From Acidobacteriota bacterium (lineage in GTDB: Bacteria; Acidobacteriota; Vicinamibacteria; Vicinamibacterales; SCN-69-37): a DNA stretch of 41,856 nt. The notes under the pieces are model-generated. The model ran no database searches and was not told the DNA's origin. It worked only from the letters and a program-made list of their open reading frames with translations. A program made the position numbers and the translations under genes. This document shows positions 37,499-41,463 of this stretch, piece after piece; within the stretch, counting starts at the first letter, position 1; every line of letters starts with the position of its first letter. The DNA lies in contig SHUF01000021.1 of the NCBI GenBank assembly GCA_009694745.1, forward strand, positions 1-41,856, written 5' to 3'.

Positions 37499-37523
37499 TC
37501 CGTTTACAGATTCAAGATTGCCA

Positions 37524-38774
37524 ATGTTTTCCTCCGTCCTCGACCGCCTGTCCTATCGCTATCCATCAGTGCTGGTTGACGGCGTCCTGTCGCATGAACC
37601 GGGCGTGCGGATGGTGGCCGTCAAAAACGTCACAGTCAACGAAGAATTTTTTCAGGGACACTTTCCCGGCACACCCCTGATGCCAGGAGTGCTCCTGATC
37701 GAGTCGCTGGCGCAGGTCGCCACGCTGCTCCTGGCCGACACCCTGCCGGGCCGAGGCGATCGCGTCGCTCTTCGCGGGGTCGACGACGTGAAGTTTCGCA
37801 AGCAGGTGGTGCCGGGAGACCGGCTCGAACTGGATGTGCGGCTTGGTGCGCGGCGCGGTCCGTTGGTGCGTGTCGAAGCCATTGCCACGAACAATGGCCA
37901 GGTTGTGGCTGAAGCCAGGCTTCTGCTGGTGGTGGAGCCGGAAGTGCCGGTGCGTGACCCCGACATCCACCCGAGCGCAGTCATCCATCCGGGCGCCGTC
38001 ATCGGCGAAGGCACGGTGGTCGGACCCTACGCCATCATCGGCCCACGGGTGACCTTGGGAAACCACTGCCGCATTGGCGCGTCGACCGTCATCGACGGGT
38101 GGACGGAGATTGGTGACCATACCGAGATCTTCCCCCTGGCCTCGATTGGCCTCGCGCCTCAGGACCTGAAGTTCAAGGGCGAGCCCACGCGACTCACGAT
38201 TGGCACCAACAACGTCTTCCGTGAGTTCGTGACCATTCACCGGGGCACGGCTGGTGGCGGCGGCGTCACCACGATCGGCGACCACAACCTGTTCATGGCC
38301 TACGCCCATGTGGCCCATGACTGCCACGTCGGCAACCACACCATCTTCGGCAACGGCGCCACGCTGGGCGGCCACGTGACCGTTGAGGACTTCGTCACGA
38401 TCAGCGCTTTCTCGGGCGTGCATCAGTTCTGCCGGATCGGCAAGTGTGCGTTCATCGGCGGCTACACAGTGGTCACCCGCAACGCGTTGCCGTATGCCAA
38501 GACCGTGGGCAACCGTGCTCGCATCTACGGCCTCAACTCGATTGGCCTGGAACGCCGGGGCTTCTCGCGCGAACTGATCGGCAAGCTGCGCCGGGCGTAT
38601 CGCCACCTCATCCAGCACAACACCAGCCGCGCCATCGAGTTGATCGAGGGCGACCCCACGTTGGCCGCTCCCGAAGTGGCGTTCCTGGTGGAGTTCATCC
38701 GGCACGCCGGGTCGCGTGGCGTCATTCTCAGGCGGCCCTCCCGCAGGGCCGGCGACGAGACCGGCGGGGAGTAA
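37524..38774 (+). CDS. FabZ-LpxA fusion: hydroxyacyl-ACP dehydratase plus UDP-GlcNAc acyltransferase
   Basis: Protein of 416 residues with two enzymes. Residues about 1-145 are a FabZ hot-dog domain with the catalytic His and Glu in GHFPGTPLMPGVLLIESLAQ. Residues about 150-410 are LpxA: left-handed beta-helix hexapeptides (IHPSAVIHPGAVIGEGTVVG), the catalytic His in AYAHVAHDCHVGN near 262, and the C-terminal helical domain (SIGLERRGFSRELIGKLRRA). FabZ dehydrates 3-hydroxyacyl-ACP while LpxA uses the same substrate to start lipid A, so a fusion places the branch point in one polypeptide. LpxC-FabZ fusions are known in Bacteroidetes. ATG 37524 is used; TTG 37518 is also in frame. No lpxD or lpxC lies next to it. 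Confidence 0.93.
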   Translation: MFSSVLDRLSYRYPSVLVDGVLSHEPGVRMVAVKNVTVNEEFFQGHFPGTPLMPGVLLIESLAQVATLLLADTLPGRGDRVALRGVDDVKFRKQVVPGDRLELDVRLGARRGPLVRVEAIATNNGQVVAEARLLLVVEPEVPVRDPDIHPSAVIHPGAVIGEGTVVGPYAIIGPRVTLGNHCRIGASTVIDGWTEIGDHTEIFPLASIGLAPQDLKFKGEPTRLTIGTNNVFREFVTIHRGTAGGGGVTTIGDHNLFMAYAHVAHDCHVGNHTIFGNGATLGGHVTVEDFVTISAFSGVHQFCRIGKCAFIGGYTVVTRNALPYAKTVGNRARIYGLNSIGLERRGFSRELIGKLRRAYRHLIQHNTSRAIELIEGDPTLAAPEVAFLVEFIRHAGSRGVILRRPSRRAGDETGGE

Positions 38775-38786
38775 GATCTCCCTCAC

Positions 38787-39614
38787 ATGCCGCTGGGCCT
38801 GATCGCCGGGAACGGAACGTTTCCTTTTTTGATTCTCAGAGCCGCCCGCCAGTTGGGCCACGAGGTCGTGGTCGTGGCGGTGGAGGGCGAGGCCTTTCCG
38901 GCCCTCGAAGAGCTGGGCCGCGAGCTGGGCGGCGTGCAGTATTCGTGGGTGGCGCTCGGCCATCTCGGCACCTGCATCAAGACGCTGCAGCATGCCGGAG
39001 TGACCCAAGCCATCATGGCCGGCCAGGTCAAACACACGAAGCTGTTTGGCGGCGTCTTGCCGGACCTGACCATGCTGTCGGTGCTCGCTCGGCTCAAGTC
39101 GAAGAACACCGACGCCCTGATTGCCGCTATCGCTGATGTGCTGCTCAAGCACGGCATCACGCTGATGGACTCCACGGAGTTGCTGGCAGATTTGCTCGCG
39201 TCACCGGGAGTACTCACCGTCGCTCAGCCAACCGAGTCCATGCAGGCCGACTTCGCATTCGCGTACTCGGTGGCCGACGCCGTGGCCGGTCTCGACGTCG
39301 GCCAGACCATCGTCGTCAAAGACCGAGCGGTGGTGGCGGTTGAAGCGATGGAAGGCACCGATGCCGCGATCGCACGCGCCGGGGCGCTGGCCGGCGCCGG
39401 CACGCGCGTGGTGAAGGTGGCCAAGCCGAAGCAGGACATGCGCTTCGACGTGCCGGTGGTGGGCGTGGCCACCATTCGCGCCATGCAGGCCGCCGGCGCC
39501 GACGCATTGTCCATTGATGCTGGCCGGACACTGGTGCTTGATGGCGCGGCGTTTCTCTGGGCCGCAAACGAGGCCGGCGTGGTGGTCGTAGGCCGGCCGC
39601 AGGGGGCCAGATGA
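38787..39614 (+). CDS. lpxI: UDP-2,3-diacylglucosamine diphosphatase LpxI
   Basis: Protein of 275 residues catalysing UDP-diacylglucosamine hydrolysis to lipid X, the step done by LpxH in enterobacteria. The N-terminus [20 protein letters not shown] is the LpxI signature. [31 protein letters not shown] and [18 protein letters not shown] follow. The C-terminal [18 protein letters not shown] segment completes the family pattern. TAAGAT lies 9 nt before ATG 38787 with no clear Shine-Dalgarno site. It overlaps the next gene by four bases. Confidence 0.95.
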
Positions 39615-40579
39615 GCGCGGATGTGCGGATCGGGGTTGTGGGGGTGGGGCACCTTGGGCGTCACCATGCGCGTCTGCTTGCGGCGGCCTCGGGTGCGCGC
39701 CTGATGGGCGTGGCCGACGTGTCGGCCGACCGGCGGGCCACTGCGTCGTCCGCACAAGGCGCGGAGGCGTTTGCCGACTACCGCGACCTCATCGGCCGCG
39801 TTGACGCCGTCAGCATTGCAGTGCCGACCGTTGATCATTGTCGCGTCGCGCGCGACTTTCTCGAGGCGGGCATTCACGTCCTCGTCGAAAAACCCATGAC
39901 TGCCACGCTCGCTGAAGCCGAGGAACTGATCGCGCTGGCGGACCGCGTGGGGCGGCGGCTTGCAGTTGGCCACACCGAGCGGTTCAACCCGGCGGTTGCT
40001 GCCGCGATTCCACTGATCTCAGCGCCGCGGTTTATTGAGGTGCATCGGCTGAGCGGTTTCCCCGACCGCAGTCTCGACATCGACGTGGTCTTCGACGTCA
40101 TGATTCACGACCTCGATATCGTGCTGGCCATCGACCACTCTGAGGTCATCGCCGTTGAGGCTGTGGGCGTGCCGGTACTTTCGCACAAGGTGGACATTGC
40201 CAACGCGCGTCTGAAATTTGCCTCGGGGTGCACCGTGAATCTGACGGCCAGCCGGATCAGTCGCGACCGCGTTCGCAAGGTTCGCTTCTTTCAGCCGGAT
40301 CTGTATGTCTCGGTGGACTACGGCGAGCAGGAGCTTGAGGCGTATCGCGTGATCCCGCGGCCGGGTGAACGGCCGGCCATCGAAGGCGGCGCAGTGCCGG
40401 TGGAAAAGGGCGAGCCGCTCGGGAGAGAATTGCAGGATTTTGTGGATGCCATCCGAGAAAACCGCGCGCCTCGTGTGACCGGGCAGGACGGGTATCGTGC
40501 GCTGGTACTGGCCACACGCGTGGCCGCGGCCATTGACGCCAACGAAAAGGAGACCGGCGCTCGCGTGCCGGGGTTGTAA
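39611..40579 (+). CDS. Gfo/Idh/MocA-family NAD(P)-dependent oxidoreductase
   Basis: Protein of 322 residues with an N-terminal Rossmann domain ([19 protein letters not shown]), the [19 protein letters not shown] segment carrying the catalytic-region EKP motif, and a C-terminal alpha/beta domain ([19 protein letters not shown]). It overlaps lpxI by four bases, so a role in lipid A or a related nucleotide-sugar is likely. It could be a GnnA-like UDP-GlcNAc 3-dehydrogenase that enables 3-amino (amide-linked) lipid A, but the GnnB transaminase is not in the window, and the substrate is not proven. Confidence 0.88.
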
Positions 40580-40581
40580 AC

Positions 40582-41463
40582 ATGTTGCAGGATCTGGAAT
40601 CCAAGGCCTCGTCAGGCGAGTCGTTTTCCCACGAAGAGGCCGAGCGCGTACTGGCCTGTGCCGACCTGGTGAGTGTGGGCACACTTGGCGAGCTCGCGCG
40701 CCGGACCCGCCACGGCGAGGTCGTCACCTACGGTCACGTGCTAGTGGTGGACGATGACGCGGCGCCATCGGAGTTGGGCGACGCGCGCGAAGTGCGCATC
40801 ACGACGCGGCCCGAGTCGGTGGCGGCGGGTTGTGCGCTGGTGCGCGAGGTTGTGGCCGCGTCGGGCGATGTGCCTGTGACGGCGTTCTCGGCCGCAGGCC
40901 TCCTGGAACTCGTCGGTGGTGACCACCTGGCCCTGGCCGAGGCCGCCCGTGAGTTGCGTGAAGCCGGCCTGACGGGCATCGCGTTTTTCCCGGTCGATCG
41001 ATTCGAAGAACCGGCCGAACTGGTGCGGGCGCTTCGTCACGGTGGGCTGGACGTCACGCGGGCGACCCTGGACCACGCGGGCACCCTGTTGGCACGCCTC
41101 GTCTGCATCGAACGGGTGGCCGCGCTTCAGCGTGAAGTGGGAGGGATGCTCGCGTTTGCGCCGTTGCCGCGGTTCGACGAGGTCGAAACGCCGTCCACCG
41201 GGTACGACGATGTGCGGACGATTACGGTGGCGCGTCTGGTGTGCGGCGAGGTGCCGTCCATTCAAGTGGACTGGGTGATGTACGGACCCAAACTCGCGCA
41301 GGTGGCGATCGCCTACGGCGCCAACGACATCGACAACGTGCCCGCGACCGATACCCTGGGCCTGGGCCATCGCAGGAGCCCGCGCACCGACGTCGCTCGC
41401 CAGATCACCGCGGCGTTCGCCACCCCGTCGGCCCGGAACAGCCGATTCGAACGGGTGTCGTGA
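40582..41463 (+). CDS. MqnE/MqnC-like protein lacking the radical-SAM cluster motif
   Basis: Protein of 293 residues. The N-terminus (LESKASSGESFSHEEAERVL) and C-terminus (PSIQVDWVMYGPKLAQVAIA; YGANDIDNVPATD) match the aminofutalosine synthase/dehypoxanthine cyclase group. Where the Cx3Cx2C motif should follow the HGEVVTYGHV strand, the sequence reads LVVDDDAAPSELGDAREVRI and has no cysteines. The protein is also shorter than typical MqnE (about 360-390). The 4Fe-4S cluster and SAM radical chemistry are therefore absent by sequence. It directly precedes mqnA, so it may act in or regulate menaquinone synthesis; the activity is unknown. ATG 40582 is 2 nt after the upstream stop. Confidence 0.8.
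   Translation: MLQDLESKASSGESFSHEEAERVLACADLVSVGTLGELARRTRHGEVVTYGHVLVVDDDAAPSELGDAREVRITTRPESVAAGCALVREVVAASGDVPVTAFSAAGLLELVGGDHLALAEAARELREAGLTGIAFFPVDRFEEPAELVRALRHGGLDVTRATLDHAGTLLARLVCIERVAALQREVGGMLAFAPLPRFDEVETPSTGYDDVRTITVARLVCGEVPSIQVDWVMYGPKLAQVAIAYGANDIDNVPATDTLGLGHRRSPRTDVARQITAAFATPSARNSRFERVS

Follow-up and report, generated by a model that had tools for sequence, protein, structure and literature searches.

What keeps an MqnE-like protein in a menaquinone operon when it lacks the cysteines of a radical S-adenosylmethionine (SAM) enzyme? The question is raised by a gene at 40582..41463 on the forward strand of contig SHUF01000021.1 (positions 1 to 41,856) of Acidobacteriota bacterium (SCN-69-37, Vicinamibacterales; GCA_009694745.1), a draft genome of 2.79 Mb that is 83% complete. 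The window analysed here is this entire contig, 41,856 bases long. A first-pass annotation, made from the sequence alone, had described the encoded protein (hereafter the target) as MqnE-like without radical-SAM cysteines, about 70-100 residues short, with an acidic, cysteine-free segment in place of the cluster, and had judged the gene intact, part of the menaquinone operon and unlikely to be a simple pseudogene. We find that the target is a pseudoenzyme of the MqnE family: its motif residues are lost, its gene is intact and purifying selection acts on it. Aminofutalosine synthase activity is unlikely on sequence grounds because the cofactor sites are missing.

Loss of the cofactor sites in an intact, conserved gene

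The target gene opens with an ATG and encodes 293 residues with no internal stop. Its matches to the NCBIfam models of MqnE (TIGR03700, 74.4 bits) and MqnC (TIGR03699, 62.5 bits) stay far under the cut-offs of 434.55 and 428.1, and in both the best stretch is C-terminal. The sole Pfam family over its cut-off is CofH_C (PF19288; 27.8 bits versus a gathering cut-off of 27, E 2.5e-6), and the radical SAM domain (PF04055) is absent from the Pfam matches at E up to 1. A sequence search of solved structures returned MqnE as the sole match at E up to 1. The acidic, cysteine-free segment described in place of the cluster was confirmed and lies at about residues 57-69; the protein holds four cysteines in all, none within a CxxxCxxC. 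The search for a second, complete mqnE, which the annotation had proposed, revealed one on contig C58 of the same genome (368 residues, CVATCLFC, 487.1 bits, over the cut-off). The target is 75 residues shorter than this enzyme, within the range first estimated. Structure prediction, another check proposed there, gave a full triosephosphate isomerase (TIM) barrel of the MqnE type, with 286 residues aligned with MqnE (PDB 6xi9, 6xig), which it also resembles in the N-terminal helices and the C-terminal CofH_C region.

To place these differences by residue, we aligned 30 target homologues with 36 MqnE, 48 MqnC and 16 MqnC-like proteins without a cluster loop, numbered by the operonic MqnE of locus L160. 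Among the 66 MqnE columns with at least 95% one residue, the target family keeps the same residue (90% or more) in 16, of which 4 lie among the 39 columns before position 251 and 12 among the 27 from 251 on. The cysteines at the cluster columns, the PGGG (181-184) and A331 of the EEK...AG loop are lost in 30/30 target homologues. Every one of the 30 carries the MqnE letter at E114, P257-L258 and D319, positions at which MqnC is mostly or always different. The target shares with MqnC the fold family and a similar C-terminal region, whereas it is without the MqnC letters at most signature positions. In a second alignment of 97 target sequences (68 of 120 listed proteins plus 29 from the window and loci), 21 columns are invariant, including G262 and R264, and R265 is at least 90% conserved. 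Conserved residues specific to the family include R72, R160, D230, R264 and R265; the polar residues that are invariant or at least 90% conserved on the barrel strands and loops are E70, R72, R160, D230, D251 and R264.

The annotation had named motif-bearing homologues at this locus in close relatives, or a ratio of non-synonymous to synonymous substitution rates (dN/dS) near 1, as observations that would refute it. Neither was found. In an order sample of 40 genomes (the window's own and 39 others), 35 carry a full-length or contig-cut target homologue in the same place, so the loss of the cysteines is more than chance. None of the 31 target homologues recovered by gene calling, in the window and 34 loci, has CxxxCxxC, and all 32 MqnC from the order's loci have it. 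Gene calling missed the target in four of the 35 sources (L046, L057, L066, L071), where the frames are unbroken, and a contig-end fragment (L069, 154 residues) was left out of the alignments. The target is missing in G008, G023, G033, G034 and G039; operonic mqnA is missing in the same five and present in the other 35. No MqnE or MqnC match was obtained in G023, G033 or G039 either, while G008 (93% complete) and G034 (74%) show one, and the operon there may therefore be merely unassembled.

In a named genome collection, from which 80 of 226 confirmed loci were kept and analysed, we found the motif in 0/80 and broken frames in 0/80 target homologues. The mqnA gene lies within 136 bases downstream in 77 of them; in L195 the mqnA match starts 118 bases inside the target frame, and L213 and L251 show no mqnA. 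Flanking MqnC was present in 71 of the 80 loci, with the motif in 70 and an unknown base at the motif in one, and nine had no MqnC in the stretch covered. Nearly all labels read Acidobacteria, Vicinamibacteria or Vicinamibacterales, with a few apparent mislabels. When 247 genomes sampled across the phylum were compared, close target homologues turned up in 23 of the order's 24 genomes (the exception, G253, has a contig that stops inside mqnA) and in no genome outside the order; the next matches dropped to E 9e-32, most of them in open frames as long as MqnE or MqnC.

Selection was estimated by the Nei-Gojobori method in seven genome pairs within the window's genus. The target gave dN/dS of 0.089-0.211, compared with 0.033-0.077 for MqnE (six pairs with both measured) and 0.037-0.133 for LpxA; the maxima for MqnA and UbiE were 0.189 and 0.202. 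The target was top of the compared genes in four of the seven pairs, with the operonic deaminase (up to 0.227) above it in the other three. The gene is held by selection, less tightly than MqnE.

A candidate for an active MqnE lies elsewhere in nearly all of these genomes: 34 of the 35 target-bearing genomes have an MqnE-type match outside the operon, and CxxxCxxC was present in 21/21 extra-operonic MqnE (19 of the 34, G008 and the window's own).

Origin of the target and a parallel case in MqnC

In four loci that read mqnE-mqnA-mqnC, the target's slot holds a cysteine-bearing MqnE: L160 and L163 come from another order of the same class, L172 and L173 from other families. In a tree, the 30 target rows form one clade with a long stem, attached between MqnE and MqnC. 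Placement beside operonic MqnE was slightly better in log-likelihood (lnL +5.5 and +5.6; approximately unbiased (AU) test, 0.64). The target would be the operon's former MqnE, a claim made because of synteny and most signature letters, not because of the tree.

A comparable loss is seen in MqnC-like proteins without the cluster loop of an acidobacterial family (f23), whose matches include records named Edaphobacter and Tunturibacter, the named ones mostly annotated as MqnC. Like the target, they have lost the cluster loop, the SAM glycines and some of the loop close to the C-terminus; they are intact, and their genomes encode an alternative catalytic sibling. Unlike it, they are kin of MqnC rather than MqnE and occur only with a divergent second MqnC, which was found in 10/10 genomes with the loop-less protein and 0/15 with canonical MqnC (loop absence was read in 6/10 and presence in 6/15, the rest being assigned by protein length). 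The cluster motif of the divergent second MqnC was seen in 6/10 genomes. The MqnC-like alignment combined 50 of 120 listed proteins with four from loci; dN/dS was 0.08-0.13 in two pairs, two of four pairs being saturated and G144 left out.

Possible roles of the target

The first-pass annotation had suggested a scaffold, a non-radical enzyme or a substrate-binding partner for a true MqnE or MqnC. The reading we favour, at somewhat less than an even chance, is that the target, itself non-catalytic, assists active menaquinone enzymes in the manner of a prozyme, the separate complete MqnE being its likeliest partner. We single out this partner because in both lineages the retired enzyme exists alongside an active one for that step, and because the MqnE of the order has four fixed order-specific changes in conserved columns, whereas its MqnC has none. 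A second MqnE would have taken over the radical step, after which the operonic MqnE could have shed its cofactor sites, and the retired barrel may have been kept since it still docks on pathway enzymes. Its job besides catalysis would be the binding of a pathway ligand or partner; the conserved arginines R72, R160, R264 and R265 might hold an anionic ligand in the barrel, either the MqnA product or aminofutalosine. The AdoMet decarboxylase prozyme of trypanosomes is likewise a dead paralogue beside a working sibling, with heterodimer and activation known from experiment, whereas for the target we infer both.

A broader claim, which we regard as possible and rather doubtful, is that in Acidobacteriota both radical-SAM steps of futalosine menaquinone synthesis independently turned two-protein, the stripped former enzyme having become an obligate substrate-holding or activating subunit (a retired MqnE in Vicinamibacterales, a retired MqnC in Edaphobacter-like bacteria). 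If so, radical-SAM enzymes would make prozymes by a repeatable route, in which the cluster loop is excised and the barrel kept. MqnE and MqnC are usually regarded as self-sufficient radical enzymes. The conservation of a dead sibling in two lineages suggests that partners take part in their work, or that the barrel serves another purpose as well, and the target lets one ask, in a natural setting, what use a radical-SAM barrel has without its cluster. Our literature search, mostly of open-access titles and abstract openings, returned no paper on relatives of MqnE or MqnC that lack the cysteines, and the word cysteine is absent from the main text of PMC3914697.

Several observations weigh against the partner reading. 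The target-bearing genome G031 has no MqnE-type match, no fusion involving the target was noticed, and the MqnC-like gene lies outside any mqn operon in the four loci viewed. Target dN/dS exceeded the MqnE value by a factor of 2.2-4.7 in the six pairs. Rate covariation with MqnE (r 0.37, p 0.013) was not above that with UbiE (0.44) or UbiX (0.63), and covariation with the pathway deaminase (0.08) and UbiA (0.02) was close to the controls BamA (-0.01) and MiaA (-0.02); the signal is weak and unspecific, and MqnE does not stand out in it. The target's residue at K296 is Q, as in MqnC. None of the placements tried was rejected, including those beside the order's own MqnE (lnL -0.7, AU 0.47) and MqnC (lnL -13.3, AU 0.21), so the tree cannot decide the ancestor. 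Ancestry alone may account for the four changes in the order's MqnE, the conserved arginines would also suit a different type of enzyme, and the coupling to mqnA would also be expected of a scaffold for MqnA.

As a different type of enzyme, the target would be a new, non-radical one, its emptied barrel refitted with arginines and acids for another step in or near the pathway, with the MqnA product as one conceivable substrate. The conserved polar residues on the barrel and the direct coupling to mqnA agree with this, as does the finding of MqnB over its model cut-off in just 9/40 genomes (any match in 18/40), so that the order may use unusual steps. However, candidates for the known steps are present, both in the G007 operon and as an MqnD candidate in 31/35 target-bearing genomes, and the parallel MqnC-like case favours something tied to the retired barrel itself; we consider a new enzyme unlikely. 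The target could also serve MqnA (and MqnC) as a scaffold or as a carrier of substrate, holding MqnE's old place in an MqnE-MqnA-MqnC assembly with no contact with the separate MqnE. The retained gene order, the mqnA gene directly after the target in 77 of the 80 kept loci, and covariation with MqnA (0.24) and MqnC (0.21) are what such a scaffold would predict. Yet the assembly is itself hypothetical here and the MqnC-like counterpart sits away from mqn genes in the loci viewed; we consider this reading slightly less likely still.

A relic on its way out, replaced and slowly decaying without function, would account for the fast divergence, the long branch and the high rank of the target in dN/dS. 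We regard this as very improbable given frames unbroken across the order, the 21 invariant columns, dN/dS well below 1 and a preserved overlap with mqnA. An error of sequencing, assembly or frame in a normal mqnE might be suspected in a contig of an incomplete draft genome, but the same motif-less protein recurs in many separate assemblies, the motif is found in none of the 80 kept loci and the genome has its complete mqnE besides; this explanation is refuted for practical purposes.

The operon and its variants

Table 1. Positions of the target, its regions, its neighbours and the MqnC-like genes.
Feature	Position	Strand	Basis
FabA-like dehydratase/LpxA-type acyltransferase fusion, one frame	37518..38774	+	Pfam
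lpxI	38787..39614	+	Pfam and NCBIfam
Gfo/Idh/MocA family oxidoreductase, upstream neighbour of target	39611..40579	+	Pfam and NCBIfam
Cysteine-less MqnE-like protein (putative retired MqnE), 293 residues	40582..41463	+	
N-terminal helices and strand 1, residues 1-56, invariant D28, G33, R40	40582..40749	+	invariant columns, model secondary structure
Short acidic cysteine-free loop, residues 57-69, at site of MqnE CxxxCxxC cluster loop	40750..40788	+	alignment with L160 MqnE
Region after strand 4, about residues 138-143, MqnE PGGG gone	40993..41010	+	L160 P181-G184 are gaps in 30/30 target homologues
Best-conserved part, strands 6-8, residues 191-254 (APL, TGYDD, QVDW, GPKLAQ, GA-D-D)	41152..41343	+	
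G-x-R-R, residues 262-265, near site of MqnE EEK...AG loop	41365..41376	+	conservation in 97 sequences, alignment
mqnA, 5' part, truncated by contig end	41464..41856	+	PF02621, E 8.9e-28
MqnC-like without cluster loop, family f23	L154:6219-7127, L155:1649-2596, L156:6360-7310, L157:5957-6898, L283, L284		

In relatives, the genes downstream of the target are, in order, mqnA, mqnC, a deaminase-like amidohydrolase, UbiA, UbiX, UbiE, a TonB-like and a MiaA-like gene, identified by domain models in L044; a menaquinone-type UbiD precedes the target in 11 loci. The mqnC gene, which the first-pass annotation had also suggested looking for, is thus present in the operon of relatives. It was not found in the window's own 83% complete genome, which fits because the contig stops inside mqnA. 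That genome has a second PF02621 gene on contig C58, taken as MqnD; the 31 MqnD candidates of the order were assigned from a further PF02621 match away from the operon. A table in PMC3914697 lists MqnA, MqnC and MqnD in 5/5 Acidobacteria proteomes.

The G007 operon has matches of UbiD, MqnC and UbiE type over the cut-offs; it also contains genes resembling UbiA, UbiX and a deaminase, the last of which its model matches at a score under the cut-off. The operonic deaminase-like gene would make futalosine, and a nucleosidase other than MqnB may serve. The target as a stand-in for MqnB could be dismissed, as all nine genomes with MqnB over the cut-off also carry the target.

We further noticed that many motif-less proteins are annotated at source as aminodeoxyfutalosine synthase or cyclic dehypoxanthinyl futalosine synthase; pathway reconstructions can therefore mistake dead copies for working ones. 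Some members of the window's genus (loci L039, L040, L041, L042) have a major facilitator superfamily (MFS) transporter gene between mqnA and mqnC; for that of L040 the nearest NCBIfam models are Tet-type efflux, below cut-off. In G028, MqnA and MqnC appear to be joined in one 694-codon frame (L062:5357-7438), and the target gene lies upstream of it on its own. Finally, the MqnE of L168:4992-6119 and L174:5054-6127 carry CX5CX2C (CVYTYNCKFC and CIYTYNCKFC) rather than CX3CX2C.
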